Positions 35,901 through 55,723 of a DNA stretch of 64,000 nucleotides are shown piece after piece. A program made the translations under genes and the position numbers. The notes under the pieces are model-generated. The model worked only from the letters and a program-made list of their open reading frames with translations, had not been told where the DNA came from and searched no databases. This stretch comes from Clavaria fumosa. Its lineage: Eukaryota > Basidiomycota > Agaricomycetes > Agaricales > Clavariaceae. Location: contig OX637803.1 of the NCBI GenBank assembly GCA_951802425.1, positions 2,852,001 to 2,916,000 of the forward strand. The letters run 5' to 3'. Position 1 is the stretch's first letter, and each line of letters opens with the position of its first letter.

Positions 35901-38900
35901 AATCAAACGGCCCTTCTGGCCAAGAGACACGCTTACCATTTGAAGCAAAAAAACCGAGACTCCCATGGTAACTGGAGGGACGCAAGTAAAACCTTACTGC
36001 AAAGGTGTGCTAACATGCTCACACGGCAGCAAGAATTCTCTGCCATGGAGGTGATTAATTACCTGATGGGATGGGGCGATCGATTTGTATCCCACCGATT
36101 TGTCTCTATATATTGGGATAGTATGATTGCGGGGGTGATACGAGCATATCCAGAGCTCAGGAAGAAGAAGTAAGTATTGCAATACGACAGAATTACAGAA
36201 ATCAGACTCAAACCACAACGGCTAGATACACAGGTCGAAAATCCAAAACCACGAATGAGGACGAGGATGAACCTGATAGTCAAGATGTTGAGCAAGTAAG
36301 TTTAAACTTATTTTAAAAACTGGAACCCAATTAACTTCATAGAATGAGACGGTAACAATGCACGCAGTTTCAGGACGTGTTGAAGTGCATGATGACCTTC
36401 AAGATTACATGGACCGAGGAGAGACATTGGAAGAATTATCATTCCTGTCATTCATGTTGAACACTTACGAAAGCCGGGAACAGAAGAAGATTCCTCCATT
36501 GACAACAGACACAAGAAATCAGCGAGGCCGTCCGCGCAATGAACGGGTGCCATACCGTGAGACGTCTCGCAAGGCGGACCGATGCCGAATTATAAGGAGC
36601 CAAGGCCACAAGACAATGCCAGACATTATAGGATACCGCTTCAGACGCGGAGACGACCCGGCGACATGCGAACAACATTCTGCAGGCTTACTAGCATTGT
36701 GCAAACCATGGAGAGAGCTTGGTGACATCAAAAGGGGATATGAGAGTTTCAAGGCTGCACTCACGCAATTCGAGAACACGACCTCGTCGGCCACCAGACG
36801 GCAACTTGAAAACATGCGGTATTACAATGATTGTTCAACCGCCGCCAATGGACAAGCAGGAGTTCAGAAATACACTCCGCGTGACATCTACGGAGATGAA
36901 GTCCTCATTCCAATCGAGGACTTTACAAGGACACTAACCATGAACGAGAAAGAGGTCGTGATTACCGGAGCAGACATCGAAGAGGCAAGGACTTCGAGTA
37001 CACCTGCAAGCGAACGTTACTACGCAGAAGTGGCAATATCTATCGCACAAGATGTGAAAATATTTGAGGATAAACAGGGCCAACACGAAATAGAACACCA
37101 ACCCGAAGCACAATCAGCCCGGCATGACGACATGACGACATGGCGAGAGTGGGAGTTAGCCTTAAAAGCAATCAACGATGCTAACGAAACAATAATTGAC
37201 GACAGACTGGTTTGTGAAGTTCCCTCATCAGGTGGAAGCAGAACACAATCATCAGAACATGTAAGCACAGTACCCTTCTCTTTTCTAATAGAATAATACT
37301 CAGAGCAATAGAATGACGTCGAGGAGTTACATGTTATCTCAAGAGAACCTCACCAGGGATGCAGCGACTCTGCCAAACATCTTAACCTGGACCAAAGAAG
37401 GGCATACGATATTATCCACCAACATGCGACACAAATACGCAACGGAAACTCACCCAAACAACTACTTTTAATGGTAGTTGGACCGGGGGGGACAGGAAAA
37501 ACAACGTTGATCAATGCTATTACACAATTATTCAATGAAATGGGTATAGGACATTGGTTGGCTAAGACAGCGACATCAGGAGTAGCCGCGAGTTTGATTG
37601 GGGGACGTACTCTTCATTGGTGGGCAGGCATTCCTGTAACCAACCGAAGCAATGTCAATCTAGAAAGCAAAGCCAGTCAACGGACGGATGCTCGGCGTAG
37701 ACGAAACATGGAAGGAAAGCAATATCTTCTTATCGACGAAATTTCCATGTGCGACACTGCAACATTTTGCAAAGCTTCAGCCATTATAGGACGCATTTTA
37801 ACAGAAAAAGCAGCACCAACAGAACCTTTGGGAGGGTTAAATGTCGTCATCCTGGGAGACTTTCATCAATTCCCTCCCCCTACTAACCCGAACGGCGCAT
37901 TGTACAGTTCACGCATGAAAACGGACTCAAACGTGTTGGGGCGTGCTCTGTACCTTCAATTTGAACAAGTGGTAATACTCCGAGAGCAGATGCGGATACG
38001 TGATACATGCTGGCACGCCATACTGCAACGAAGCAGGGAGGGTCAATGCACAGAGGAAGACATCAAAGAAATCCAAAAGTTAGTGCTTACACATCCAGAC
38101 TGTCAGGTCCCCGACTTCTCCAAAGAACCATGGTCGAAAGCAATACTTGTGACATCTAGAAACACCGTGCGTATGAAATGGAACGAGGAAGCAATAGGAA
38201 AACTACGAGCAGGAACAGGGGCAGTCTTGTACTATTGCAATGCAGAAGACACAGTGGGAACCAACCATAGAGAGTTGACGATGGAAGAGAAGGTTCTGAC
38301 CGCTGGTAAGAAAGAGGCACAAACAGCTAGACTCCCCGGTCGAATCCCGTTGGCCATAGGAATGCAGGCAATGGTAACAATGAATGTGGCCACAGAAGTA
38401 GACCTTGCAAATGGTTCACGAGGAGAAATCATCGACATTGTTCTAGATGCACGGGAAGAAAAGGGGACGGACAACGGAGTCAAAGAATTACGATACCCTC
38501 CAGCGCTAGTCAAATTCAAACCTACTACGACTGTTACGCAACATTTCGAAGGATTAACTGAAGGACTGGTGCCGATTTTTCCCTGCGAGCGCACATTCAT
38601 GATAACGAACAAGGAAGGGAAAAGGACGACCGTCACGAGGCGGCAAGCACCGATAACACCAGGGTTTGCGTACACAGACTACCGTGCACAGGGTCAAACT
38701 ATTGAACATGTCATAGTGGACATAGGACGTACCCCCAACTTTCCTTTGAGCCCATTCAATGCCTACGTCGCGTTATCGAGGAGTCGAGGACGAGACACAA
38801 TTCGTTTGCTGCGAGGTTTCGACGAACGGCTCTTCACGCAACATCCGTCGGAAGATCTGAGGCAAGAAGATATTCGTCTAGAGGTACTAGACAAAGAGAC

Positions 38901-38934
38901 GCGAACATGGTATAAAGAGGGAAACAGTGGTTGA
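32975..38934 (+). CDS. Helitron-type Rep-helicase A (RepHel), 1888 aa, seven exons
   Basis: Exons 32975-33219, 33262-34226, 34276-34350, 34399-36134, 36191-36295, 36343-37260 and 37312-38934 join without a stop (introns 42-56 bp; the 36135-36190 boundaries are the least certain). The N-terminal third has the Cys-rich region common in fungal Helitron proteins (LVCKVCARR, then CMSCMQELQNG). Rep: EAQGRGTLHLHL gives the HUH motif (about H749/H751) and FYIAAYAWKKK the two Tyr (about Y916, Y920). PIF1-type helicase: GPGGTGKTT (about 1405), LIDEISM, LGDFHQFPP, REQMRIRD, TDYRAQGQTIEHV and YVALSRSRG. Together these would nick, unwind and roll-circle-copy DNA. The gene appears intact. Confidence 0.88.
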
Positions 38935-39414: not shown

Positions 39415-41548
39415 ATATCATATGTCATATTTTGCAAGCTGTGTGAAAAAGTTCCCACAGTCATAGTGGCTTACCAAAAGCAGCCATGCCAGGTACAGGG
39501 GATAGACACCCTACTATCTCCACTGGAGAGGTCTCATACAGGGGAAGGATATCCTAATATCCCTGCTGGACATGTCTCATACTGCAGAAGGATATCCTAA
39601 TATCTCTGCTGGACAGGTCTCATACAGGGGAAGGATATCCTAATATCTCCACTGGACAGGTCTCATACAGGGGAAGGATATCCTAATATCTCCGCTGGAC
39701 AGGTCTCATACAGGGGAAGGATATCCTAATATCTCCGCTGGACAGGTCTCATGCAGGGGAAGGATATCCTAATATCTCCGCTGGACAGGTCTCATACAGG
39801 GGAAGGATATCCTAATATCTCTGCTGGACAGGTCTTGTACAGGGGAAGGATATCCTAATATCTCCACTGGACAGGTCTCATACAGGGGAAGGATATCCTA
39901 ATATCTCCGCTGGACAGGTCTCATACAGGGGAAGGATATCCTAATATCTCCGCTGGACAGGTCTTGTACAGGGGAAGGATATCCTAATATCTCCACTGGA
40001 CAGGTCTCATACAGGGGAAGGATATCCTAATATCTCCACTGGACAGGTCTCGTACTGCAGAAGGATATCCTAATATCTCTGCTGGACAGGTCTCATACAG
40101 GGGAAGGATATCCTAATATCTCCACTGGACAGGTCTCGTACTGCAGAAGGATATCCTAATATCTCTGCTGGACATGTCTCATACAGGGGGAGGATATCCT
40201 AATATCTCCGCTGGACATGTCTCATACTGCAGAAGGATATCCTAATATCTCCGCTGGACAGGTCTCATACAGGGGAAGGATATCCTAATATCTCCGCTGG
40301 ACAGGTCTCATACAGGAGAAGGATATCCTAATATCTCCGCTGGACAGGTCTCATACAGGGGAAGGATATCCTAATATCTCCGCTGGACAGGTCTCATACA
40401 GGAGAAGGATATCCTAATATCTCCGCTGGACAGGTCTCATACAGGGGAAGGATATCCTAATATCTCCGCTGGACAGGTCTCATACAGGAGAAGGATATCC
40501 TAATATCTCTGCTGGACAGGTCTCATACAGGGGAAGGATATCCTAATATCTCTCCACTGGACAGGTCTCATACTGGAGAAGGATATCCTAATATCTCCAC
40601 TGGACAGGTCTCTTACAGGAGAAGGATATCCTAATATCTCCACTGGACAGGTCTCTTACAGGAGAGGGATATCCTAATATCTCCGCTGGATGGGTCTCAT
40701 ACTGGAGAGGGATATCCTAATATCCCTCCGCCGGACAGGTCTCACACTGGAGAGGGATATCCTCTGGCGGACCTGTATTATACCAAGGATACAGATATCT
40801 CCGGCGGATTCCGGTACTGCGTTATATACAGGGGATATGTATGAAGGTCCAAACCGGACAATATTGTTAAGTGTGTCATTTTTTGGTCATAATTTTTATG
40901 CACACTTGTGTGCATTAGTGTGCACTTATGCACACTTGTGCAAGTTGTGCACATTTGTGCACACTAATGTGCACTTATGCACACTTATGCACACTTATGC
41001 ACACTTATGCACACTTATGCACACTTATGCAAAGTTATGCAAAGTTATGCAGAGTTGTGCAAAGTTATGCAATATTTTTTGTGCAAAGTTATGCAGAGTT
41101 ATGCAAAGTTGTGCAGACTTGTGCAGCTTTGTGCAGAGTTGTGCAGAGTTGTGCAAAGTGCAGAGTTGCATAAGTCTGCACAAGTCTGCACAAGTCTGCA
41201 CAAGTCTGCACAAAGCTGCACAAGTCTGCACAACTTTGCATAACTCTGCATAACTTTGCACAAAAAATATTGCATAACTTTGCACAACTCTGCATAACTT
41301 TGCATAACTTTGCATAAGTGTGCATAAGTGTGCATAAGTGTGCATAAGTGTGCATAAGTGCACATTAGTGTGCACAAATGTGCACAACTTGCACAAGTGT
41401 GCATAAGTGCACACTAATGCACACAAGTGTGCATAAAAATTATGACCAAAAAATGACACACTTAACAATATTGTCCAGTTTGGACCTTCATAGATATGCA
41501 GCGTCCGGTACGTAGTTATATACTACAATATCTGACTGAACTATGTGA
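39415..41548. repeat. Element A right terminal inverted repeat with 43-bp array
   Basis: Inverse of the left repeat: it starts ATATCATATGTCATATTTTG, then GCAGCCATGCCAGGTACAGG, about thirty 43-bp units (GGATATCCTAATATC core), unique terminal sequence and CTATGTGA. A 653-bp palindrome (40840-41492) is inserted 56 bases from the terminus. Longer than the left copy mainly through extra tandem units. Confidence 0.92.
40840..41492. mobile_element. 653-bp palindromic element with GATATG duplication
   Basis: Ends TATGAAGGTCCAAAC / GTTTGGACCTTCATA; the target duplication is GATATG (40834-40839, 41493-41498). The whole element is one near-perfect hairpin. Its arms are runs of GTGCACTTATGCA-like octamer repeats (TGCACACT, TGCAAAGT). 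Frames such as MHTYAHLCTLM on both strands are products of the repeat. The uninterrupted site can be read from the left inverted repeat of Element A. Confidence 0.9.
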
Positions 41549-41908: not shown

Positions 41909-42177
41909 ACCGTCACTCCCTTCCCGCACAGGCGCAATCCTCAGACCAATACGAAACTCATCTTGGAACACCCGTCTGCTGGCAAACCCGTTCCTCGCGT
42001 TCCCGACTGCGGCCACGGAACTTCAAATCAGGAGAGTCCCTGTGCGGAAAACACCAACGACGAAATCACCGGAGATTCCCACGTGCGATGCCGTGGGCTG
42101 TGAGCAACACGAAACAGGGTACGAGATACACCGAAGGGAACCCGCGAGAGCCGCAAGGCGTCTGCGGAGACTACATT
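41909..42177. other. Host-like flank between Copia and Element B
   Basis: GC-richer than the following block. It is the sequence that joined the Ser/Pro ORF promoter region (21495-21633) before Copia inserted. An open plus frame crosses it but has no recognisable domain. Confidence 0.4.
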
Positions 42178-42198
42178 CCCGCTAACTTGTTTAGCGGG
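42178..42198. repeat. Perfect hairpin at the left edge of Element B
   Basis: CCCGCTAA, loop CTTGT, TTAGCGGG: eight perfect pairs. The first nine bases, CCCGCTAAC, recur inverted at 54500-54508. The position coincides with the switch to AT-rich sequence. Confidence 0.7.
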
Positions 42199-42756
42199 TT
42201 TACCAAACCAGTTGATACAAAAGTCACTATTTCAACTTTTGGCAGCGCGATGCAATTCTCTTGGCGTGTGAAACTTTTTCTATTTCTATATCTTGTTTTG
42301 GGGTTTTATGTTTGTGTTTGAAAGAGGAGTATTTCAACAACATGTCACAACTTTGTAATGTAACATGTCGTTGCCTTTGACTTCGGTCTGATCTTCTTCG
42401 CCTTTACAACCTCATTCTTTGTTCAACCCATTCTTCCTCATCATTGATTGTGCACTCCATTTCTGTCTTGTGTTTTGTGGAACAGTTTGGGTTATATGTG
42501 AGTGTTGTCTTGTCTTGTTTTCATTTGCTTTTGACATTTTTCTGTCTGTCTATCTTTCTATTCATATTTTTCCACAGATCTATTCTTTGCCTGTACCTGT
42601 CTCTCTTATTATTCCTCCTATCTTTCTGTCCTTGGGTTTATATGTGAGTCTTGTCTTGTCTCACATAGTGTCATATTACTCACTCTCATATGGTGTCATA
42701 TATAGCTTTCTGTCCCTTGATTCTGTTTTGCTGCCCAAGTGGGTGTTGATTATGAT
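42199..42756 (+). other. AT-rich 5' region of RepHel B
   Basis: T-rich, with TCTTGTCTTG and TTTCTGTC-like runs. It presumably holds the RepHel B promoter and leader. The first in-frame ATG is at 42757. No other feature is supported. Confidence 0.45.
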
Positions 42757-45700
42757 ATGACTTCTGCATCTGCATCATCTTCTATCCCTATTTCTGTTCT
42801 GTCTCATTCTACTTCAACTAGTCCTTCTGTTGCTACTTTTTTTGATGGGTTTGAACGTCTCAGTAGAGCATCTTTGTTATCTTCAATACATGATCATGGG
42901 GTTGAACATTCAGATACTGCTTCTAGTGAGGAGTTACGCTCATTACTAACCTCTCACATTGCTGAAGGGCTTTGTTGCAATTTAACTGGTCCTGCTTGTA
43001 TGAATATTTGTTCTGATTTTCATGTCTCTCAATCAGATTCACTTGAGGTGCAGATCTTGCAGTCTTTGTTGTATAAAATCCGTTTGCGTCCCCTCCGTAG
43101 ACTGTTGTCATTACGAGATATTGTTTATGACCCTTCTTCATCTTTACGACAGCTTCGTCAGGTCCTTCGTCGTCATATCAGTTCCTTGCGAAAGGGAAAA
43201 CAAAGTCAAAGACAAAACATGTGTGATGAGTCTATTTTGAAAGCAGAATGGCCTAATGTTGTGTCATCTAGTTTGAAGGATAAGCTTGTGCAAATGTTTC
43301 AAAAAGCAACTTCTTCAGAGTCTTTGGCTGTCTTTACTTGTGCTTCATGTGCAGAGGCTTGTTTATGTAGTGAAAGAAAACAATTGCTTGCATCATCTAT
43401 CAATCTTGAGCTTTTCCGTTGCCCTGTATTAAATGGTGGAGGTACAAGAGAAAGGTTTGATAATCACACTTATTTGCCTGAATTACCTGAATTTCATGGT
43501 GTACTGCAAGGATTGCTACTGGACTTGAAAGGAGTAACAGATTTAAACACAGGTGATTTTAAGCTCTCAATGTGCTCAACATGTGCTCGTAGTGTTCAAA
43601 AGAATAAATTGCCTGCTCTGGCTTTGGCAAATCAAACTTTTTTGGGGGATGTACCTGATGAATTAAAGGATCTTACTCCTGTTGAAGAATCAATGATTGC
43701 ACGGTGTCGGGCCAAATGCTTTGTTGTCCAATTGAAAGAGGAGAATCAGCATCTTTCTTTGCCAGGCACACAGAGGGGAATGAAAGGTCATATTATAATT
43801 TATCCCCAACAACCTGATAAGCTTGTGGATGTACTCCCACCCTCAATTGAAGAGATTGTCACTCCAATTTGTGTCATATTTGTTGGCTCAACACCACCAT
43901 CTCAGGATTGGCTTCGGAGAAAGGCTAAACCTTTATGTGTTCGTCGTGAGAAGGTCCGGTCTGCTTTGATTTGGCTTCAACAACATAACCCCCTTTATAA
44001 GCACATTACAATTAACCATTCTGTTCTTAATAGCCTTTCTGATGAGCAGATTCTGCCTTTTAACATTGAACATGTATTGCCCAATGACACACAGGAATGT
44101 TTGACAACTGGGTATGATGGTAATCTTAACCTGGAGAGTCATGTGTCTGCAGCTCAACCACAACCAGATATACCATTCCAAAGTGTTGTTATTACAGATG
44201 TTGATGGGCATGCTACTGCTAATGAACTTCGTGCCGCTGCTATCCGACATGTAAAGACAAAAGGTGGTGCTTACATTGAAATTCCTCATGAACCTAAGCC
44301 TGTTAATGAATTTCACAATCCTGGTCTCTTCCCTTTGACATACCCTAGTCTTTTTCCATATGGCATTGGAGGTTTTGAGGATCCTCATCGGACTACACCT
44401 CTTGCATTGAGAAAGCATGTTAAGCACCTGTTTAATTTGGCTGATCGTAGATTTCAAGAACATTTTTCTTTTTTGTTTACTGTGTTCAATATTTTGCAAC
44501 GGAGGTCTGTTCTTTTGCATTCTAGTCTGAAGGTGAAGAAGGCATCATTCAATTCTGTTGCTGCTGACCTTGTCAATGTATCATTTGAAGCAGTTCATCG
44601 TGTAACAGAATGTGTATCTCGAGGAGATTGTATTACTGCTAATGATGATGAGGAACGGAGGGTTCTACGACTTATGAAGGAAGTCAATGTTGTAACAACT
44701 CATGTCTCTGGATCCTCTGCAGCCAGATTGGCTATGCGTAATGAGATTCGTGCTCTGATGATAAAGCTTGGACCTCCAAGTTTCTATATTACTATCAATC
44801 CTGCGGATGTATTTAACCCTATTGTCAAATTTCTTGCTGGTAATGATATTGACATTGATAACTTGCTTCCTGACCAAGTTCCTAATTATTGGGAGCAAGC
44901 TATCCTTGTTGCTCGAAATCCTGCTGTTGCTGCTAAGTTTTTCAATTTGTACATGAAAGCATTTATTTCTACTATTTTAGCTTTTGATCCTAGTTATGCT
45001 AATATAGAAGGAGGTATTTTAGGTGTGGTGAATGGTTATTATGGTTGTGTTGAAGCTCAAGGACGTGGGACTTTGCATTGTCATATGTTGGTGTGGGTCA
45101 AGGGGAGTCTGAATCCAAATGAGATACGAGATCGAATACTAGAGAAAAATGATGTGGAGTTTCGTGATCGTTTGATTGCCTTTCTAGATGATACTATCTC
45201 TAATTCAATACCGCCTGACCCTGACCCTAATTTGGTGGTTCCATCTACAAATCATCATCCATGTTCTGTTCGTGGAGTGAATACAGCTCATCATACTAGT
45301 CCTCAGGATGCTAAAAAATTTCGTCAAAAAGACTTGCACCATCTTGTAAAGCAATGTCAACTGCATACACATTCAAAGACATGCTACAAATATTGGAAAG
45401 GTCCTCCAAATCCTAAAGAGTGTCGTTTTTCATTAGATGAAAGCAATGTTCGTTTGTCAACCTCATTTGATCCAGAGACTGGTCAACTTTGCCTTCGTTG
45501 TCTGGATGGTTTAGTCAACAATTTTAATGAAACTATTTTAGAGGCTATTCGATGTAATATGGATATCAAATTCATTGGTTCTGGTACATCTGCAAAAGCA
45601 GTTTTGTATTACATCACTGATTACATTTCAAAATCTCAGCTTAAAGCTCACATTGCTTTTGCTGCACTTCAACGAGCTGTTGAAAAGTTGGGAGAGTTTG

Positions 45701-48700
45701 ATGCCTCTCAGGATGAAGTTACACAACATGCAAAAAAATTGCTCCTAAAATGTGCTTTTGCTTTAATTTCACATCAAGAATTATCTGCTCAGCAAGTGTG
45801 CTCTTATCTGATGGATTTTGAAGATCATTTCACCAGTCATGTTTTTAGGAATTTTTATTGGACTAGTTTTGAGTCTATTATTGACAGACAAGATCCAAGT
45901 CCAGAATGTAACTCAGACAAACCCTACATTCAGAATTATGATAGTGTTAATGATGAACCTTTTTGCAATGATCAAAATGACCAAGTTGTTCCTGTAATTG
46001 ATGAATCTGATGAGGTTTTTATTACAATGGACCGGAATGGTCAGGTCTTGGGTCATTCTTCTCAAGTTGTCTGCTATCAGCTTTGTGGTAATCTATTTTC
46101 AGACATGACTCTTTGGGATTTTATAGGTCAGGTTGATAAAGTGAGGTTCAAAAAGAAGAGAAATTGTGATGGAGATACAGGGAATCTTGATTTTGAATGT
46201 GATGACTCTGACCAGGGTGAACAAAATGAAAACAGTAGCTACTGCATGGATATTGATGACATGCTGGGTTCTATATCACGGAAGCGTCCTCAATGCTTTT
46301 TTTTACCTACTCACCCTGAGTATAAGACTCATTTTTTGCGAATTCGTCAGCCATTGACGAGATATGTTCCTGTACCAATTGGACCATCAATACCCCGTCG
46401 TGATCATGAGGTTTCGAAGGCAAGATATGCACGTCTTATGTTAATTCTTTTTAAACCATGGCATTCAGCTGCTGATTTAAGGAAGACAGGTCAGAGTTGG
46501 CATGAGGCATTTGTAGAGTATTGTAACACCTGTCCTAAGCAATTCCTCACAATAATGGATAACATGCAACTTTTACATGAGTGTAAAGACAGTCGTGATG
46601 ATCATTATGCTAATCGTCAGTCTCATAGATCTACTCAAGTCCCTGTTGAAATGACGCATGGTACAAACACTTTAGATGACTTTACAGGCAGTTTTGATGA
46701 TATTGACATCTTAGAACATTTAGATTCAATAGATTCATGTACCTCCATGAGGGTTGCAAATTCAATTGCAGAAGTGCAAGAATGTTTGCTTTATGCACAG
46801 GCTGGTCACATGTTCTCTGTAACACCTTTTCAAGGACTTCAAATGGATGCAATAAATATGAATCAGGCTGTAGAAGAAGTGCAGTTAATGCATGATTTTT
46901 TGGACCTTGAAGCTGTATGGGAAGAGGAATATCAGAAACGTCGTAATGCATGGAAGAATAAAAATACTCAAGATAATTCCAGCATCCCAACTGCAAGCTC
47001 AAGCGCTGACACTTCACTGATTCACAATGGCCCTACCATTCGTGAAGCTTCTGGATTCCTTGAACATGCTTCATCTACTACAGATAGTGTTGCTCCTACT
47101 ATCAGGCAAGACATTTCTGCTGTGAGTGTTGTGCCTCATATTTGTGTATCTGACATAATAAATCAATGGACATTGAATACAGAACAGGCTCGTGCCTTTC
47201 AGATCATTTCACAGCATAGTTTACAGAACCAGCCTGAGCCTTTACGAATGTACTTAGGAGGGGCAGGAGGTACAGGAAAATCACGGGTTATACAAGCTTT
47301 GAATGATTTCTTCACAAAATGTGGACAGTTAAGGAGGTTTCGGTTAGCTTCATATACTGGTGTAGCTGCTCGTAATATTTCTGGAATGACCTTACATGCT
47401 GCCTTGTCTTTTTCTCAACAAGGGAAGTATGGTTCTGCTACAAAGACTAATCGTGATCTTGTTGCTATGTGGGAAGGCGTTGACTACCTCTTCATTGATG
47501 AAGTTTCAATGATTGGCTGTAATTTCCTTCTACAAATTAGTGAGGCTCTCAATAAGGCAAAAGGTAATGCAACAGCATTTGGTGGAATAAATATTATACT
47601 GGCTGGGGATTTTGCACAATTGCCTCCAGTGTCACAAAGTCGTCTATTTAGTAGACTTGATACACGAACTATTGCTCAGGGTGGTACTAAAATTGGACAA
47701 AAAGCAATACTTGGTAAACTGTTGTGGCTATCTTTTAAGACTGTTGTGCTTTTAACATCTGTTATGAGACAATCAGGCCCAGAGAATGAGCAATTTGTAC
47801 AGTTGCTTGCTCGTCTTCGTGAAGGGAAATGCACTAGGAGTGATCATGCAATCCTCTCTTCTCGAATTATTCATGATGCTGCTGATATTAATTTTAATGA
47901 ACAACGTTGGAAAGATGCACCTATAATTGTCTCAAATAATGCGGTCAAAGATGCACTGAATATTCGAATGGCTTCTTCATTTGCACAGCAAACAAATCAA
48001 ACTCTTCATTGGTATCATTCATGTGACTCACGAGGAGGAAAGCAAGTGGTTGATGAAAGGTTGAAGGACAAGCTAGATGCCATGCACTCAGGCCAAACAA
48101 ATCAACGACTTGGCAAGATACCATTAGTCATTGGAATGCCAGTTATGATTTGCCAAAACTTTGATGTGCAAGGTGGCATCGTCAATGGCAGTACAGGCAT
48201 TTTGAGGAAAATAAGGTATATCAAAGATGACACTGGCAAAAGGTATCTTAAGTCATGTATTGTAGAAGTTAACAATATTAGTGAAAATTCTTTACCTCAT
48301 CTACCACCTCATTATGTTGCTGTATTGCCTGACAAAACAGATTTGAATTTTATTCATCCTCACTCTAAGAAGCGATGTCTGATCAAACGAACACAGGTCC
48401 CTATTTGTCCTGCATTTGCTATGACTGCTCATAAAGCACAGGGTCAATCCCTTCACACTGTGGTTATTGACCTCCAGAGCTGCAGAGGTACTGAAGCTCC
48501 TTATGTCATGGTATCTAGAGTTACATCCTTAAGTGGATTGGCTATTCTTCGACCATTTGATGCTGGAAAGATTTCTTGTCGTCAATCAGAAGATGTTCGA
48601 AGAGAGATGCATCGTTTACATGTTTTGAACTTGCAGACAATTACAATTTTTGGTAGCAGTGCAGAAGCAACACAAGCTATGCAGGAACTCCACACTCTGC

Positions 48701-49029
48701 AACATGAACGATGTCAAGGAGATCCAGGACAGGGCCATGTTGTCATTGATACAGATGACCTGCCTAATAACCGGCTACATCGACTTCAACAGCATCCATA
48801 TCAATTTGAAGGCAGTACTTTGAGATCTCGATTGACACAGTTACAAATGACTGTGTCTACTCCTGTCCCCTCAAACTCTGAGACAGATATTATGGAGCAA
48901 ACATTAAGTCTGGGCATGCAGCCTGAGACTGACCATGGTCCAACAGACTTTGGACCTTCTCGACCCCGGATCTCAAAACGTCTCCCCAATACAGTGGGAA
49001 GAACAAGCAAGCGACTTCGAATGGTTTAA
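42757..49029 (+). CDS. Helitron-type Rep-helicase B (RepHel), 2090 aa, single exon
   Basis: The start chosen is the first ATG in frame (MTSASASSSIPISV). A Ser-rich N-terminus is followed by a Cys-rich region (FTCASCAEACLC, then LSMCSTCARSVQ). Rep domain: EAQGRGTLHCHMLVW supplies HUH (H774/H776) and YYITDYISKSQ the catalytic Tyr pair (Y952/Y956). Helicase: LGGAGGTGKSR (about 1500-1508), LFIDEVSMIG, LAGDFAQLPPVSQ, TAHKAQGQSLHTVVID and YVMVSRVTSL. All key residues are present over the full length. Unlike RepHel A it has no introns and uses AT-rich codons, so the two are distant relatives. Expected role: rolling-circle transposition of Element B. Confidence 0.93.
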   Translation: MTSASASSSIPISVLSHSTSTSPSVATFFDGFERLSRASLLSSIHDHGVEHSDTASSEELRSLLTSHIAEGLCCNLTGPACMNICSDFHVSQSDSLEVQILQSLLYKIRLRPLRRLLSLRDIVYDPSSSLRQLRQVLRRHISSLRKGKQSQRQNMCDESILKAEWPNVVSSSLKDKLVQMFQKATSSESLAVFTCASCAEACLCSERKQLLASSINLELFRCPVLNGGGTRERFDNHTYLPELPEFHGVLQGLLLDLKGVTDLNTGDFKLSMCSTCARSVQKNKLPALALANQTFLGDVPDELKDLTPVEESMIARCRAKCFVVQLKEENQHLSLPGTQRGMKGHIIIYPQQPDKLVDVLPPSIEEIVTPICVIFVGSTPPSQDWLRRKAKPLCVRREKVRSALIWLQQHNPLYKHITINHSVLNSLSDEQILPFNIEHVLPNDTQECLTTGYDGNLNLESHVSAAQPQPDIPFQSVVITDVDGHATANELRAAAIRHVKTKGGAYIEIPHEPKPVNEFHNPGLFPLTYPSLFPYGIGGFEDPHRTTPLALRKHVKHLFNLADRRFQEHFSFLFTVFNILQRRSVLLHSSLKVKKASFNSVAADLVNVSFEAVHRVTECVSRGDCITANDDEERRVLRLMKEVNVVTTHVSGSSAARLAMRNEIRALMIKLGPPSFYITINPADVFNPIVKFLAGNDIDIDNLLPDQVPNYWEQAILVARNPAVAAKFFNLYMKAFISTILAFDPSYANIEGGILGVVNGYYGCVEAQGRGTLHCHMLVWVKGSLNPNEIRDRILEKNDVEFRDRLIAFLDDTISNSIPPDPDPNLVVPSTNHHPCSVRGVNTAHHTSPQDAKKFRQKDLHHLVKQCQLHTHSKTCYKYWKGPPNPKECRFSLDESNVRLSTSFDPETGQLCLRCLDGLVNNFNETILEAIRCNMDIKFIGSGTSAKAVLYYITDYISKSQLKAHIAFAALQRAVEKLGEFDASQDEVTQHAKKLLLKCAFALISHQELSAQQVCSYLMDFEDHFTSHVFRNFYWTSFESIIDRQDPSPECNSDKPYIQNYDSVNDEPFCNDQNDQVVPVIDESDEVFITMDRNGQVLGHSSQVVCYQLCGNLFSDMTLWDFIGQVDKVRFKKKRNCDGDTGNLDFECDDSDQGEQNENSSYCMDIDDMLGSISRKRPQCFFLPTHPEYKTHFLRIRQPLTRYVPVPIGPSIPRRDHEVSKARYARLMLILFKPWHSAADLRKTGQSWHEAFVEYCNTCPKQFLTIMDNMQLLHECKDSRDDHYANRQSHRSTQVPVEMTHGTNTLDDFTGSFDDIDILEHLDSIDSCTSMRVANSIAEVQECLLYAQAGHMFSVTPFQGLQMDAINMNQAVEEVQLMHDFLDLEAVWEEEYQKRRNAWKNKNTQDNSSIPTASSSADTSLIHNGPTIREASGFLEHASSTTDSVAPTIRQDISAVSVVPHICVSDIINQWTLNTEQARAFQIISQHSLQNQPEPLRMYLGGAGGTGKSRVIQALNDFFTKCGQLRRFRLASYTGVAARNISGMTLHAALSFSQQGKYGSATKTNRDLVAMWEGVDYLFIDEVSMIGCNFLLQISEALNKAKGNATAFGGINIILAGDFAQLPPVSQSRLFSRLDTRTIAQGGTKIGQKAILGKLLWLSFKTVVLLTSVMRQSGPENEQFVQLLARLREGKCTRSDHAILSSRIIHDAADINFNEQRWKDAPIIVSNNAVKDALNIRMASSFAQQTNQTLHWYHSCDSRGGKQVVDERLKDKLDAMHSGQTNQRLGKIPLVIGMPVMICQNFDVQGGIVNGSTGILRKIRYIKDDTGKRYLKSCIVEVNNISENSLPHLPPHYVAVLPDKTDLNFIHPHSKKRCLIKRTQVPICPAFAMTAHKAQGQSLHTVVIDLQSCRGTEAPYVMVSRVTSLSGLAILRPFDAGKISCRQSEDVRREMHRLHVLNLQTITIFGSSAEATQAMQELHTLQHERCQGDPGQGHVVIDTDDLPNNRLHRLQQHPYQFEGSTLRSRLTQLQMTVSTPVPSNSETDIMEQTLSLGMQPETDHGPTDFGPSRPRISKRLPNTVGRTSKRLRMV

Positions 49030-49451
49030 CTTGGTATGAATAGGAGTACCGTTGCCATTGTGACTGTGTTTTGGCTAATGCAACATTTCAGAAGTTATTA
49101 CGGCAGAAAATTTTCGTTGCTGTTCCTTTGCCAATCAAACAGGTCTAAGCAGCAAATAAGTCATTGCTGTACGTCATTGCCTTGTTTCATACATTGACAA
49201 CTGATCAGATTAGACCAAAACCAATTTCAGACTTCGACAACTTGGCAGCAACACACTTGTTGCCTTATCAACCAAGCTGTCTCTGGGCAGCGATGATCCA
49301 ACTCAGAAACATAATTATGCTTTTTTTTAATTAAAAAATTAGTAAGTCTGGCCTTCGTGTCACAGGTCATTTTCCCTCTGACTGGTCCTGCGACTTAGGG
49401 GTCTGAACACTTTGCTGTGACATCTAAGGTTTTCACAGTATATAACTCTGA
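49030..49451. other. Intergenic region, RepHel B to accessory gene
   Basis: AT-rich spacer with poly-T and poly-A runs near 49320-49340. It probably contains the terminator of RepHel B and the promoter of the next gene. Nothing else was seen. Confidence 0.45.
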
Positions 49452-50839
49452 ATGCAACAGCCTTGTGTTGCAACGACAATGGACTCCGACTTGTTCTATG
49501 GAAATCGTATTGATGATGGGACCTATGACTCTATTGTCTCTCAACTCAATGACATGGGCTCTTCTGCACTTGCACATGCTTCGTATCTCGAAGACTTCGT
49601 ACCTGAGGTTGGCTCTGGAGGCAACATCTCTTACAGACATCCATCTGATCATACCGAATTTTCTGCTTGCTTGTTTGGAGAAATCCAGCCATTCTCTACT
49701 GGTACTATTATTTCGGCAAAAGGAAACCATTGGCCTGGCCCAAAGAAAGATCAGGTATGTACAACCACAGCACAATTATTTATTTTCATTTTGCTAACAA
49801 TTGATGTATTCTCAAGCCTATCACCGACTCATCACCAGTGAAAGATGTCCTTGTCCTAGGGATGCCTACTCTAGCAACGGAGGAGCTTAGTGAACTGTTC
49901 AATGACCAAATTGGAACCCTGAATGAGCCACGTATTGTTGATGAAGCAGAGGAAATCAAGGATTCAAACAAGGTTTTACCTCCGTTTTGTTGTTTACTTT
50001 TCTTTGACTCACATTATGGACAAGTACAACGTTCGTGAATGGCTTCGACCCTCTACAACTGATCGGAGTAAAGCATTGGACCTTATTGCAGTCCATCTAC
50101 CATTAAAGTATGGGGTATGTGATTTAATTTTTAATGCCATGTATTGGTGTCAAACAGCATTGACAGGTTCCTGCAATCACAAAAGCTCCTTCTACTCCTG
50201 TTCGGATAACAAAGAAGCGTAAAAAGTCTGATATGACTTTAGATGGAGGATCTGATAATGAATCCCAACCAAATTTGCAAAGCAGTCTTGGAGCACCCAA
50301 TGGTATGTTGTTTGTAATAAATATGATCAGATTTTGACAACTATATCTTATCGTTTTTTTATAGCGGACCAAATATTTGTTGGTGCCTTTTATGACCCAA
50401 ATCTCCTTCCAGACCATTCAGGACCATATTTCCAACATGTCAATGCAAAATTACGACAACTTGACATTAGGGATATGGATGGCAATCTTATTCTACCATG
50501 GGATCTCTATACAAAACTCCGGCCTGGGTCCCTAGTCCTTGTAAATGCGACTCTCCATGTCTGGGTGTACATGGATCCTAAGGAGCCTAACAATATACGA
50601 AAGGTCGTATTCACTAATGTTTGCAATTTAAAATTAATAACAATTGAACCTTATAGACTTACCAAATCAATGCTCAAAGTGTTCGACTCCTTGCTGAATC
50701 AAACGAAGTCATCGAACCTATCATTGTTCCAAGTCTCCCACTTAACCCTGTAGTTGGTCCTTCATCGAAGGGTACCATTACCAGATCGAAAGTGGCCTTT
50801 GATGGCTTTGTTTCTCCTTCTAAAAGACGAGCTGTCTGA
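49452..50839 (+). CDS. Element B accessory protein, 368 aa, six exons, unknown function
   Basis: Exons 49452-49754, 49817-49972, 50025-50114, 50167-50302, 50365-50603 and 50657-50839 join in frame across 52-62 bp introns. An alternative ATG is at 49479. A polar, Lys-rich middle (TKKRKKSD) may be a nuclear localisation signal. The C-terminal half (DIRDMDGNLILPWDLYTKLRPGS in parts, then LVLVNATLHVWVYMD and TYQINAQSVRLLAE) resembles a conserved protein seen repeatedly in agaricomycete genomes near mobile elements. The alternating hydrophobic pattern suits an OB-like barrel. No biochemical role is established; single-strand DNA binding for RepHel is an inference. Confidence 0.72.
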
Positions 50840-51184
50840 TATTATATTTATTACTGAACAGTTATGCTTAACTTTACTTATATATTCCCTATGTCTCCTT
50901 AATTTATTTGGAGCTTACTTGCTCTATCTCAATACGCTAACTTATATGTTTTGCTTATTTATATGAATATATCCTTTCACCATATCTGTCCACCCAATAG
51001 TCTCACATTTGAAGAGATATCATCCACCTGCTCTCCTGTCACCACCTGTACTACCACCACACAGCCGCACTTCTGCCACTGTTCCTGGACTTTCTGCCAC
51101 CACCCGCCATGCACCCTGGTACTGCCGTCTGCCCCTGCTGCTCAGTCACCACTCTCTCCCCACATATATGCTGCAGTCCCCACT
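50840..51184. other. AT-rich then C-rich spacer
   Basis: No gene. From about 51020 it becomes rich in CCACC/CACCT, leading into the hairpin repeats. Confidence 0.4.
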
Positions 51185-51241
51185 CAACGGCCCAAGTCCC
51201 CCCCTTTGGTCTGTGACCATGGCAAGGGACTTGCGCCGTTG
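51185..51241. repeat. Hairpin repeat, copy 1
   Basis: CAACGGCCCAAGTC pairs with the complementary arm at the other end (one mismatch, GACTTGCGCCGTTG), loop TTGGTCTGTGACCAT. A second copy lies at 51548-51604. Confidence 0.7.
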
Positions 51242-51294
51242 CATGGCGGTATGAGCCCCTCCTGTCATCAGTTCCTGGCAGTTGACAGAGTAAA

Positions 51295-51400
51295 GTGAGA
51301 GAAAGAGGGGAGACAGAGATGGGGAGGGGGAGAGGGAGAGGGAGAGGGAGAGGGAAAGGGAGAGGGAGAGAGAGGGAAAGAGAGAGAGAGAGAGAGAAAG
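51295..51400. repeat. (GGGAGA)n purine microsatellite
   Basis: Almost pure GGGAGA/GAGA repeat on plus between the two hairpin copies. Open frames here are products of the repeat. Confidence 0.85.
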
Positions 51401-51547
51401 GGTGCCGCTGCCGCTGCCAGGGCCATCCTCATTACCATCCTTATTACTGTTTTTGTCCCTATCCTCATCACCATCCTCATCACCATCCTCCTCACCACAG
51501 CCGTCCCTGTTGCCATTGCCCCCATTGCCTGTGCTGCCGCACCCACT

Positions 51548-51604
51548 CAACGGCCCAAGTCCCCACCATTGGTCTGTGAGCATAGTGGGCGACTTGGGCC
51601 GTTG
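51548..51604. repeat. Hairpin repeat, copy 2
   Basis: Perfect 14-bp stem CAACGGCCCAAGTC / GACTTGGGCCGTTG around a loop containing TTGGTCTGTGA. Both copies are followed by CGGTATGAGCCC. Confidence 0.75.
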
Positions 51605-52681
51605 TATCACGGTATGAGCCCTTCATTGACATCATCAGTTGGGAATGGAAGATGAGAGAGGAAGGTGAGAGAGAGAAGAAAAACCCTGTACGAAAAAACC
51701 CTGTATGAAAAAAAAAAACTACAAAATCAGGCCGCGCACCACGACGACGTCCTCGCTCAACTCTGAGAGCATGCCCACGCTGGACACGCTGCGTGCGCAA
51801 GAGCGAGCATATCGTGGTCATCGCATCCCCCCGGTGCCTAAGTTGTGGTGCTTGCGAAGTCGGCGGCGTTCCCTTGCGTGTCCGCAACACGGCCGCCGTC
51901 CTTTTTTCCCGTCCCGCGCAATCATCCCCTTCACCGCCCAACATCCCAGAGTGTGCGTGGAGGCGCCATGGCATCAGTAACTGGTGTGCGACGAGTATTT
52001 CGGTTCAGGCCGACTAAGGTTGCCGTTTGGGGCCGGCTGCGGCAACAGCGGGAGATGGTTCGACGACAAGAGAGACGAGGAAGATGGGAGGCTGGGATGA
52101 TGCGGCGAGGACTGAGGTGATGCGGCGGGGACAGAGAGAAGTCGGGGGGTGGGCAGCGGTGATGTGGGCGACCTACTGCCGCACTGCTGCTGCCAGTCAA
52201 ATCAAAAAAAAAAGATAAAAAGGTAAGAGCACACCTACTGCTCATTATCATCCCTTGTGGTCATCCTCTTCACTGCTGTCACAATCCTTCATTGCCATCT
52301 ATTGTCATCCACTATCATCTTAGTAAAAATCAAAGAGAGTGAAAAAAAGCGACAGGTGCCGGTCGCTTGAGCAGGTCACAAGTGGTGTGACTTGGTGTAG
52401 GTAGGGGGCTCCCTGACATATTGAAAGGAGGACAGAACATCGGCCCTTCCCATCATCTGCGTTCCCGGGATCGAGTACTGCAGACGATGGGAGGACGATG
52501 GGAGGGTGATGAGGCGAGAAAATGAACAAACGAAGGCGGATAGCAAATTGTAAACAAATGTAAACAATGGACAATATGGTCTGATTCTGCCACAGCATTG
52601 CTTTGTCAGCATTACAACCCTGTTTATCACTTCCATCCCATTGTTTCTTCTCCTCTCCCTTCATCAAAAGCTTTTGGTATC
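51605..52681. other. Spacer with a GC-rich island upstream of the TET/JBP gene
   Basis: 51720-52200 is clearly GC-rich within the AT-rich element and looks like captured foreign sequence, but no gene was recognised in it. 52200-52680 returns to AT-rich and should hold the promoter of the next gene. Confidence 0.45.
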
Positions 52682-54395
52682 ATGGCTCCTAAAGATCTTG
52701 TAACTAGGCTTTATCTGTTGTAATGTATATTACATTGTGCTTAACAGTCTATTGTCTTTATAGACTGGAGATGGTGCCTTGGAAGTCATCTCCTCAGAAA
52801 TTTTTCAACTTCTTCTCCATATTGCTGTTGAGAGGGAACTCTCTACTACTTATGAAGAAGTTTCTGGAGGATTACCCAACCATGTGAGTACAATTTTAGT
52901 ACTTATTTGTAACAGTGGGTTTGGAAATGACCTGTTTATTAACTCCATAGATGGACATCTCAGGGAACACTGCTGATGATATTGTCACTCCAACTCCAGA
53001 AGAGGACTCTGGAGGTTTGCTCTCTGATTCTGTTCATAGATCCTCAGACCAGGTGAGCACATTTCTTGTAATTCATATTAGCCTTTCAATTGACCTCTTT
53101 GTTAATTCTACAGATGGACATGTCAGCCAAAGCTGCTGATTATAATATTGCTGTAACCCCACTCAAGAAGGCGAAATTACGAAGTAAAGTGAATCGAAAA
53201 CGAAAGCGCGATATTGAAAGGGCCTAGACCCATATCCAGTTCGGCCTTCGATTTTCAAGAAGCATGTTGTTGATTCAACTCCAATCCAATATGCTTTGGA
53301 TACTTCTCTTCTCAAAGTATCAATTCCTGGGTACATAGGTGTCAAGGAAGGGAAGGATGAGCATAGCCTTGGGTTTGGACTCAAGAGGTCTTATAGTCTG
53401 AAGGATTTGGTTGGTGAAGATTCCATTTTCAAATTCACATTAGTGGAATGGGATGGCCTGTAAGTCCCATTGCATATTATCTTACAGAAACTGATTATGG
53501 ACTTAAACATAGCACTGCTATCCCCCTCATTGATAGCAATCAATACATCAGGGCTGTCTTGGGAGGTCAACCAGAAGATCCCAACTGGGAACCTGTCCCT
53601 AGACAAGCAGCTTCTGATATGGTTCAAGCCAGGGGCTTGTGTACCTTCCACCCAAAGGAGTTGTCTCACAGAAGGGGAGAATATGCTGCATTAGCAATGG
53701 GTCCTTCATATGGTGGAGGACAACAGGTGCCTTGTAATCTGCAGGTCTCTGAAGTCAACAGGAAGGCACTGGAATTGCTCACCTCAAGCACTGCTATAAA
53801 AAGGATTGCAGGCTTTGCATCAAGTATGTATTTGTATTATGACTGAGTTTACTCTAATCATTCTCCAGGTCTCTTTGCTACATGGGCTCCAAAGCTTTAC
53901 AGCTACTATAAGGACCACCAAGAGGCACTCTATAACAACCACCCTACTTTGGTCAAGAATTTCTCAAACAGCATATGGACAACCTGCACTTTCAATTTTG
54001 GTCCCAGGACTGTTACTGTTGACCACTGTGACATTGCAAATTTGGCCTTTGGCTGGTGTGCTGTTACAGCCCTTGGAGATTTCAACCCACAACTAGGTGG
54101 ACATTTTGTGCTCTGGGACCTCAAGACTGTTATCCAATTTCCACCAGGATCTACTATCCTTATTCCCTCTGCAACATTTCGACATTCAAATGTGGATATT
54201 GCACCAGGTGACACCAGAATGTCTTTTACTCAATACACAGCTGGAGGTTTATTTCGATGGGTGGACTGTAATTTCCAGACCCTCTCAAACTTCAGGAATG
54301 ACCCAAATAATCAACTTGCTTATGATGAAGCTTCAAAACAGAGATGGCAGATGGGTTTAGGTCTCTTCTCTCATTTACATGATCTTGTTAAGTAA
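52682..54395 (+). CDS. TET/JBP-like 2-oxoglutarate/Fe(II) dioxygenase, 451 aa, seven exons
   Basis: Exons 52682-52699, 52764-52883, 52951-53052, 53114-53183, 53228-53459, 53537-53823 and 53869-54395 sum to 1356 nt with no stop; introns 44-77 bp, all GT..AG. A basic segment (KKAKLR) precedes the core, then VEWDGLNQYIRAVLGGQPED, RIAGFAS, LFATWAPKLYSYY and FNFGPRTVTVDHCDIANLAF. Fe ligands by family pattern: H329 and D331 (HCD) and H382 (FRHSN); R393 (DTRMSFTQY) would bind 2-oxoglutarate. The tail QYTAGGLFRWVD is typical of agaricomycete TET/JBP proteins. Known members oxidise 5-methylcytosine and are expanded with KDZ transposons; here the neighbour is a RepHel. No lesion is seen. Confidence 0.88.
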
Positions 54396-54508
54396 TATAC
54401 ATATGCCATCTGGGTACTAGTATGTCACATACTTAATGTGCAATTGTATGCTCTTTGTGGTCACGTTGTGGGTCAGATTTCTCACATTGCAGTTGTTATG
54501 TTAGCGGG

Positions 54509-55723
54509 CTGTGCCGTGCCATACGGCCTTATGCCTTATGAGATATGTGTCAGTCATAATTGAAGCGAAATGAACGGAGTGCAAGATGAGACGCGGGACA
54601 CGGGCAATCGACCAGGACCGAATTCCCACACTCACTCCGTGAGTGCGTCGACATCCACAGTGACTATCACTCAAGCAGAACCCCTTCCCCATCGCCTTAA
54701 GCTGGTGCAAGAACACTGGGATGGACCTGCGGACGCGTCCTGAATGTCATCATACTCTTTGACCTCGCCCTCTGGACGACCCCTTCCTTCGCTCCAAGCC
54801 TCGCAGAGTCAGCTCGTAACAGCTACCAATCAGCTCCTACCGAACTATCCGAGCTGTCGCAGACCAGGTGCTCGCGCCTCGACGTGTTTCCTTATGGTAG
54901 TGCCTCCGGCATTTGTGGAGGCCTGCAGCTTCGGTGCAAACTGCCGGTGTTACGTCACTGTGAAGAGGTTCTCGCCATCGCTATACTTTCAATCTAATCA
55001 TAATTAGGTAGGGCCTGTATTCATTCCGAATATAGTGGTGGCGAGGACATCGTGGTCTACAAGTCGGGAGATACCGAGAACAGACTGTTAACGGAGGCAA
55101 CGACCTGTCTCTCCTGCAGGCTTAGCCGTGCGCGCTCGATGACCCCCAGGACAGCTGCAAGATCAAGGGAACCTTCCTGGAGCTCGGAATGGCTGCGCGG
55201 CATTTCGCAATGCCGCCTCCGGCACCGCATCCGCGCTCTCCAGGGGCTGGGCGTGCGGCGGCTGTGGGTCGGCAGCGCGAGATGCCAACGCTGCCGCTGG
55301 CGATGCCCGGTGCCCACTATCCGGAGGCTCGCGCAGCGTTGAGACGCGAGAAGAGACGCGGCTCCCACGGCCGCGATGGCGGCGCGGAATGACCTCCGGC
55401 AGACTAGAAGGCCCGGTGAGGCTGGAATGCGGTCGGGAGTGCAGACGAAGAGGACACGCTACCTTCGGGGACCACGTCTATGGCACAGGGCCCGCCTGCG
55501 TGACCGCGGGGGTCGGGTGGCGGCGGTGGGGTCTGCGGCGTGCCGCTAGAGAATTTCGTGCCTGAGAGGCGTCCCGCATTGATTGAAGATGCATACACCA
55601 GGAGGGACATGATGGACGTACCAGAAAACGGGAACGGGGATGGGAGGTGGGAAGGCCCCAGCTCGCCTCTTTCCAGTCCTGAGACAGCTGCGGGCTGCGG
55701 ATCGTAGGGAGGAGATGCTCGTG
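54509..55723. other. GC-richer region, no firm gene
   Basis: Composition returns to host-like. A plus frame from the ATG at 54570 (MNGVQDETRDTGNRPGPN) runs about 58 codons, and another frame stays open from there to about 55000, so a small spliced gene is possible, but no domain is recognised. 55040-55720 on minus is open in pieces and may be the C-terminal region of the membrane protein gene that follows. Confidence 0.35.

Follow-up and report, generated by a model that had tools for sequence, protein, structure and literature searches.

A Helitron2-type transposon of Clavaria fumosa with a three-gene cassette that includes a candidate anti-silencing TET/JBP dioxygenase

A stretch of 64,000 nucleotides from the fungus Clavaria fumosa (contig OX637803.1, positions 2,852,001 to 2,916,000; hereafter the window) was found to contain a complete rolling-circle transposon of 12.4 kb, from position 42176 to 54538. 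Its boundaries, set by the comparison of copies, are approximate as regards the terminal Ts, which may be part of the element. Its three intact genes have the same orientation and encode a RepHel protein, an accessory protein of 359 aa and a dioxygenase of the TET/JBP family. The anatomy of a TET-carrying element of the Helitron2 type is close to certain. The reading of the whole that we consider fairly probable is a rolling-circle transposon of the Helitron2 type that looks autonomous and whose cassette of three genes includes a TET that would act against silencing. The question at stake is whether transposons use TET enzymes of their own against silencing. One genome with an intact element, a near-identical decayed copy, a record of CpG decay and two TET pocket classes makes this question testable in a single organism.

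Results

The genome searched comprised 48.8 Mb in 17 contigs, the window being C10:2852001-2916000. A search with the TET protein returned nine loci including the window, and 16 to 20 kb were fetched around the other eight. Copy A (C3, minus strand) contained all three genes in the same order and matched window positions 42175 to 54539 at 99.5% over 12,367 columns. Because the entire block is repeated there between different flanks, the association of the three genes goes beyond chance. Copy B (C1) retained both ends and the TET gene, but of RepHel only the first 105 aa and of the accessory protein only the last 60 aa; it also contained other insertions. The complete trio was therefore present at two of the nine TET loci (window and A), and at a third (B) the TET gene was accompanied by remnants of the other two. 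At C (C13), D (C12), E (C3, plus strand), F (C1), G (C3, minus strand) and H (C9), no RepHel or accessory match was found at an E value of 1e-4 in the fetched stretch. In copy A, RepHel and the accessory gene each had two stops, and the TET gene was free of them. The TET gene had two stops in B, two in C, and one in D together with large exon insertions, and it was interrupted in E. A broken RepHel and a relative of the accessory gene were also found spread over 32 kb at C8:1889095-1921508.

The ends were compared among the window, A and B (Table 1). With a slash at the boundary, the left consensus was A/TTCCCGCTAACTTGTTTAGCGGG (one C-to-T change in B) and the right one GTTAGCGGG-CTGT-GCCGTgccatACGGC-CTTATGCCTTA/T (several differences in B). 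The 5' inverted repeat, CCCGCTAAC, starts at 42178. The 5' end folded as an 8-pair hairpin with a z score of -6.65 against shuffles. For the 39-nt 3' end, in which a five-pair palindrome is present, the z score was -0.75 and 45 of 200 shuffles folded equally well. When the genome was queried with the 5' end, 10 matches were obtained including the window, nine of which began no more than 8 bases from the terminus. A query with the 3' end gave 12 matches including the window; seven reached the terminus, and the others were inner pieces, among them the TET tails of C and D. An A preceded the T(T)C start in eight of the ten left ends, the two exceptions being a near-identical pair and another such pair lying among the eight. 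A short element with both ends was located at C4:3457656-3458037, and a 3' end copy at C7:2843387 still had a TET tail. As for an empty site in the same genome, the joined flanks of copy B matched the two flanks themselves and gave one partial match at 78%, and the joined window flanks matched only themselves, so that no empty site was found with these two.

Helitron2 elements are defined by asymmetric terminal inverted repeats, the 3' repeat lying 20 to 40 bp inside the end (PMC5148889). In the window, CCCGCTAAC at the 5' end is paired with GTTAGCGGG 30 bp within the 3' end, and copy A is alike. A Rep (HUH) and a PIF1-like helicase were also joined in a single protein, as in Helitron2. Pfam assigned to RepHel the domains DUF6570, Helitron_like_N (3.2e-35) and PIF1 (1.2e-21), and the HUH motif GTLHCHMLVW, a YYITDYISK motif and the PIF1 helicase were recognized. 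A genome search with the helicase model PF02689 gave nine weak fragments, none within the window, and was not used.

The GC content of the element was 0.419, versus 0.531, 0.481 and 0.546 in the window at 1-26, 31-40 and 55-64 kb, respectively. The observed/expected (o/e) ratio of CpG was 0.43, versus 0.67, 0.84 and 0.94 in the same stretches. The GC-rich stretch in the gap between the accessory and TET genes was assigned to the element because copy A has it and copy B has most of it. A preliminary description, drawn from the letters of this DNA alone, had proposed three co-oriented, lesion-free genes in an AT-rich block. This was borne out, since RepHel is one open frame, the accessory and TET gene models are intact in the window, and the GC content is below that of all three stretches compared. 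It had further named as checks the recurrence of such ends, the co-occurrence of the trio between them and the adjacency of the TET gene to RepHel at other loci. The end queries did match other loci in the genome, the trio was found complete again in A and partial in B (three of nine TET loci, counting the window), and the TET gene of copy A adjoins RepHel. Two details needed revision. The matching inverted ends exist, but the 3' repeat is subterminal and the element runs on to 54538; the accessory gene is present, but its six-exon model yields 359 aa and not 368.

Table 1. Positions of the features of the element in the window
Feature	Position	Strand	Basis
5' end: TT, then hairpin CCCGCTAA-CTTGT-TTAGCGGG, with CCCGCTAAC as 5' inverted repeat	42176..42198	+	Copy comparison, DNA fold, end query
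RepHel, 2096 aa, single open frame	42739..49029	+	ORF, Pfam, motifs
Accessory gene in 6 exons, encoding 359 aa; product predicted to bind single-stranded DNA through an OB-fold	49479..50839	+	Exon model, relatives, fold search of a relative's model
GC-rich low-complexity stretch, accessory-TET gap	50840..52681		Present in copy A and mostly in copy B
TET/JBP dioxygenase gene, 7 exons, 459 aa	52682..54395	+	Exon model, alignment, motifs, model fold
Inverted repeat GTTAGCGGG on the 3' side, subterminal by 30 bp	54500..54508	+	Copy comparison
3' palindrome GCCGT-gccat-ACGGC	54513..54527	+	5-bp stem predicted
3' terminus CTTATGCCTTA, then T in 7 of 7 right ends compared	54528..54538	+	Copy comparison

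The intron models of the accessory and TET genes were drawn by eye from GT..AG and the reading frame. Two of the five accessory donors are unusual GT sites; the six TET introns are GT..AG in the window and likewise in copies A and B. The extra base of copy A at 53222 falls inside a predicted TET intron, and the remaining length differences between the window and A lie before the RepHel frame or between genes, which supports the gene models. The window TET protein matched no Pfam family at an E value of 10, and PF12851 was matched by only 3 of the 47 sequences of a TET alignment (A1), at best with 9.5e-07. A sequence search of solved structures gave nothing meaningful. In a fold search, the predicted structure of a TET relative was nearest to TET enzymes among the solved structures (best matches CcTET, NgTET1 and TET2), and CMD1 was also matched. 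The HxD motif (HCD in the window), a downstream His and an Arg are invariant columns in A1 and present in the window protein; we take this Arg to be the one that binds 2-oxoglutarate.

The pocket positions were set by their offset from the first His, assuming no gap, with Gly331 of CcTET at +5 and Asp337 at +11. The window TET has Asn at H+5 and Cys at H+11, and both columns are invariant in A1. The pattern HxDxxN...GxC was found in 119 of the 120 TET relatives listed, and Asn/Cys also in copies A and D and in the distant F and G. Gly331 of CcTET corresponds in position to Asn1387 of human TET2 and to Asp in NgTET1 and CMD1, where the residue holds 5-methylcytosine (5mC) and clashes with 6-methyladenine (6mA); Asp337 corresponds to Thr1393 and Ser238 (PMC11040006). 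Among three PF12851 loci sampled in the same genome, two had Gly/Asp (one 2 kb from a KDZ match, the other 91 kb from the nearest one listed) and the third Asp/Val. Judged by these residues, the Helitron TET resembles a conventional TET of the 5mC type and not the CcTET-like ones. F and G belong to a third repeat family with a distant TET (L047/L048, L049/L050 and L051/L052; 38 to 42% identical).

For the accessory protein, 24 relatives were found; the named relatives listed for this protein and for the TET are mushroom-forming fungi, from which the host would be an agaricomycete. Solved structures searched by sequence were uninformative for the accessory protein, but the fold comparison did match. 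The predicted structure of the relative P0121 resembled viral single-stranded-DNA (ssDNA)-binding proteins (SSBs), e.g., T7 gp2.5, and is similar to solved SSBs in its OB-fold. RPA was not among the 50 matches listed for this model, which is no proof of its absence. The accessory protein is thus a probable ssDNA-binding-like partner, as judged from a model.

Selection on the TET gene was estimated by the Nei-Gojobori method after omission of gapped codons (B, 4; D, 28; C, 10) and stops (B, 2; D, 1; C, 2). The dN/dS of the window was 0.25 versus B, 0.21 versus D and 0.15 versus C, with bootstrap upper bounds of 0.41, 0.29 and 0.24, respectively, and 0.34 versus E over 139 codons. The short RepHel and accessory pieces of B gave values of about 1 with wide ranges. 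The comparisons of the TET gene with B, C and D showed purifying selection.

The window and copy A differed by 54 substitutions, of which 47 were transitions and 37 CpG transitions, CpG making up 3.8% of positions. The CpG was retained in the window at 30 of these 37 sites and in A at seven. All 10 stops counted in A to D correspond to CGA or CGG codons in the window. Because CpG transitions and stops derived from CGA or CGG are the mark of deaminated 5mC, these changes point to the element as a target of cytosine methylation in the past. Cytosine methyltransferase matches were found at two loci of the genome. The last 3 kb of the right flank of copy B (L040) had a CpG o/e of 0.014, and the flanks of copy A about 1.

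Other TET-like genes of the genome were compared with KDZ elements, using the 150 listed of 185 KDZ matches. PF12851 had 64 matches. Of these, 34 lay no more than 5 kb from a listed KDZ match, versus 3% of the genome, and 25 lay more than 10 kb from any. None of the 10 loci of the Helitron-lineage TET and its distant relatives (the nine TET loci and the C7 remnant) lay within 40 kb of a listed KDZ match, and a link of the Helitron TET to KDZ was rejected on this count. When the TET alignment was compared by hhalign to a single KDZ-type peptide, the probability was 3%, which was not usable. Weak PF12851 matches also lay about 17 to 165 kb from a contig end (C1:5273111, C4:21061, C11:2822034, C2:4877557, C7:160147, C10:59155 and C8:50823); L067 (C10), sampled from this group, had Asp/Val at the two pocket positions.

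The loci C and D revealed a second vehicle. Past the stop of the TET gene they are alike as far as a hairpin, GCTGA(C/T)GTTAGTCAGC, with CTAG/T after it, and then diverge; a hairpin with CTRR is the canonical 3' end of Helitrons (PMC5148889). L074 and L075 have this same end next to other flanks, and it was also found in six sampled copies, L068 to L073 (C1, C3, C10 and C11). Because these six have common flanks and lie 3.9 to 4.3 kb from KDZ matches, they were judged to be embedded in KDZ elements. Such a pattern would result if an ancestral KDZ element had received a Helitron insertion and the two were then amplified together. Between the TET gene and the canonical end, an 11-mer like the Helitron2 3' terminus was present, exact in C (equaled in 2 of 1,000 shuffles) and with one mismatch in D (29 of 1,000). 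Most simply, a Helitron with the canonical end would have acquired the TET end of a Helitron2 copy; we offer this as a suggestion, since neither C nor D yielded a 5' end. Pfam searches of 7 of the 12 stop-to-stop peptides near C, D, F and G showed no transposase, only a copia-type gag near G, and a scan of viral contigs for relatives gave nothing useful.

The surroundings of the element are repetitive. A 43-bp unit is repeated 29 times in tandem (92% matches) at 39494-40763, and arrays of 10 bp then extend to about 41436. About 3 kb upstream of the element, 33578-38913 is occupied by another, diverged RepHel, which is about 25 to 29% identical and has no adjacent TET match.

Discussion

By analogy with their families, RepHel would nick and peel off one strand and join the ends, and the accessory protein would coat the single-stranded or circular intermediate. 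The TET would oxidize the 5mC of the element and possibly act in trans elsewhere too; even a methylated copy could then be transcribed long enough for transposition. Inserted copies would eventually be methylated and decay by deamination of 5mC, and the TET gene would be renewed only via copies still working. A real role of the TET is favored because of the purifying selection and the TET2-like pocket residue; judged from sequence, anti-silencing, presumably through demethylation, is the most likely one.

Several results weigh against this reading. Between the window and A, the TET gene had four nonsynonymous and one synonymous change (dN/dS, 1.17), so that no constraint is visible, although the changes are too few. 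Outside these two, no intact TET gene of the close lineage was seen among the loci found. The RepHel and accessory relative on C8 showed no TET match in about 9.6 kb past the accessory piece, and the TET may therefore not be obligatory for the element. Structures were predicted for relatives of the TET and accessory proteins and not for the window proteins, and the P0121 model is only partly confident (mean pLDDT, 62.5). Finally, because both copies show CpG decay and the CpG o/e is 0.43 versus 0.84 at the TET-less RepHel (31-40 kb), it is suggested that inserted copies become methylated despite the TET and are not kept unmethylated for good.

The unconstrained comparison with A and the C8 relative would also fit a captured passenger, i.e., a host gene picked up by the Helitron and carried without benefit to the element, and Helitrons are known to capture genes (PMC4289320). 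We consider this improbable in view of the dN/dS of 0.15 to 0.25 in the three more distant comparisons, with no upper bound above 0.41. Related TETs moreover reside in a second, differently ended element, and TET occurs in many transposon lineages (Kojima 2025, PMC12730594). A TET that is active, but on another base, on host DNA or toward a hypermodified product like that of CMD1, rather than as the 5mC eraser of its own element, is rather unlikely. CMD1, an enzyme that modifies 5mC with a glyceryl group (Kojima 2025, PMC12730594), is among the structural matches, the second pocket position holds a Cys, unlike in the three enzymes for which this residue is given (PMC11040006), and the CpG decay of the copies was not prevented. 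Against it stands the Asn at H+5, invariant in the 47 aligned sequences, which is the N1387 of human TET2 that holds 5mC (PMC11040006). An accidental neighborhood, in which nested insertion brought the three genes together, could be imagined in a repeat-rich region with a second RepHel ending so close upstream. Its probability is negligible: copy A, the whole block between the same ends elsewhere, refutes it, and copy B has both ends and the TET gene.

Beyond the anti-silencing reading, a bolder proposal is conceivable, which we hold only tentatively. A Helitron would have evolved a kit of three parts, namely RepHel, an SSB of viral type and a TET2-like eraser dedicated to 5mC, which would differ from the CcTET-like 5mC/6mA enzymes of KDZ elements in the same genome, and the eraser gene would have passed between Helitron2-ended and canonical-ended elements. 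If so, rival transposon classes would each field an anti-silencing enzyme of their own.

Comparison with known systems

The preliminary description had taken the pairing of RepHel with TET as a different association from the one in KDZ elements. This does not hold as a novelty, since TET-carrying fungal Helitrons, with the same idea of escape, are already in Kojima 2025 (PMC12730594). That paper, published in December 2025, finds TET in 11 lineages of transposons, Helitron1 and Helitron2 among them, reports its transfer from one lineage to another and proposes that TET lets transposons escape silencing. TET-carrying Helitron1 is listed in Puccinia graminis and Pezizales, and TET-carrying Helitron2 in Agaricus bisporus. 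Beyond it, no report of a Helitron TET was found in the literature searched, including the available portions of PMC8889193, PMC13297926, PMC12477816 and PMC6416283. According to a 2026 review, transposon TETs are yet to be functionally characterized (PMC13297926). New here are a TET that is neither PE nor AG and has a TET2-like Asn, a partner protein that is ssDNA-binding-like, and the presence of close relatives of this TET in elements that have the canonical Helitron 3' end.

The Helitrons of Kojima 2025 resemble the window element in being fungal Helitrons with an internal TET/JBP gene and the same proposed role, and the A. bisporus family is also Helitron2. The available text mentions no ssDNA-binding partner for them, although the A. 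bisporus Helitron2 may have a similar partner gene. Of the TET types distinguished there, PU (a Pucciniomycete group), AG and PE, only PE is listed for Helitrons outside rusts. The hallmark of PE is HxE, whereas the window TET has HCD and is not PE; AG, the CcTET-like type, has Gly/Ser and Asp at CcTET positions 331 and 337, whereas the window TET has Asn and Cys and is not AG. With the KDZ (Kyakuja/Zisupton)-borne AG-type TETs, including CcTET, it shares the overall TET fold by model; two of the three PF12851 loci sampled in this genome have Gly/Asp like CcTET, in contrast to the Asn/Cys and lack of a Pfam match of the Helitron TET.

Helitron2/Helentron elements (Fusarium FoHeli, DINE-1 partners; PMC5148889, PMC4067079) have in common with the window element the asymmetric inverted repeats, the 5' hairpin, the inner 3' repeat and RepHel. 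An endonuclease domain is expected in the RepHel of Helentrons, whereas Pfam found none here over the 2096 aa at an E value of 0.1. The TET gene is an addition in the window element. Plant Helitrons and Helentrons also carry genes for ssDNA binding (RPA), whereas the accessory protein of the window element resembles a viral or phage OB-fold SSB instead.

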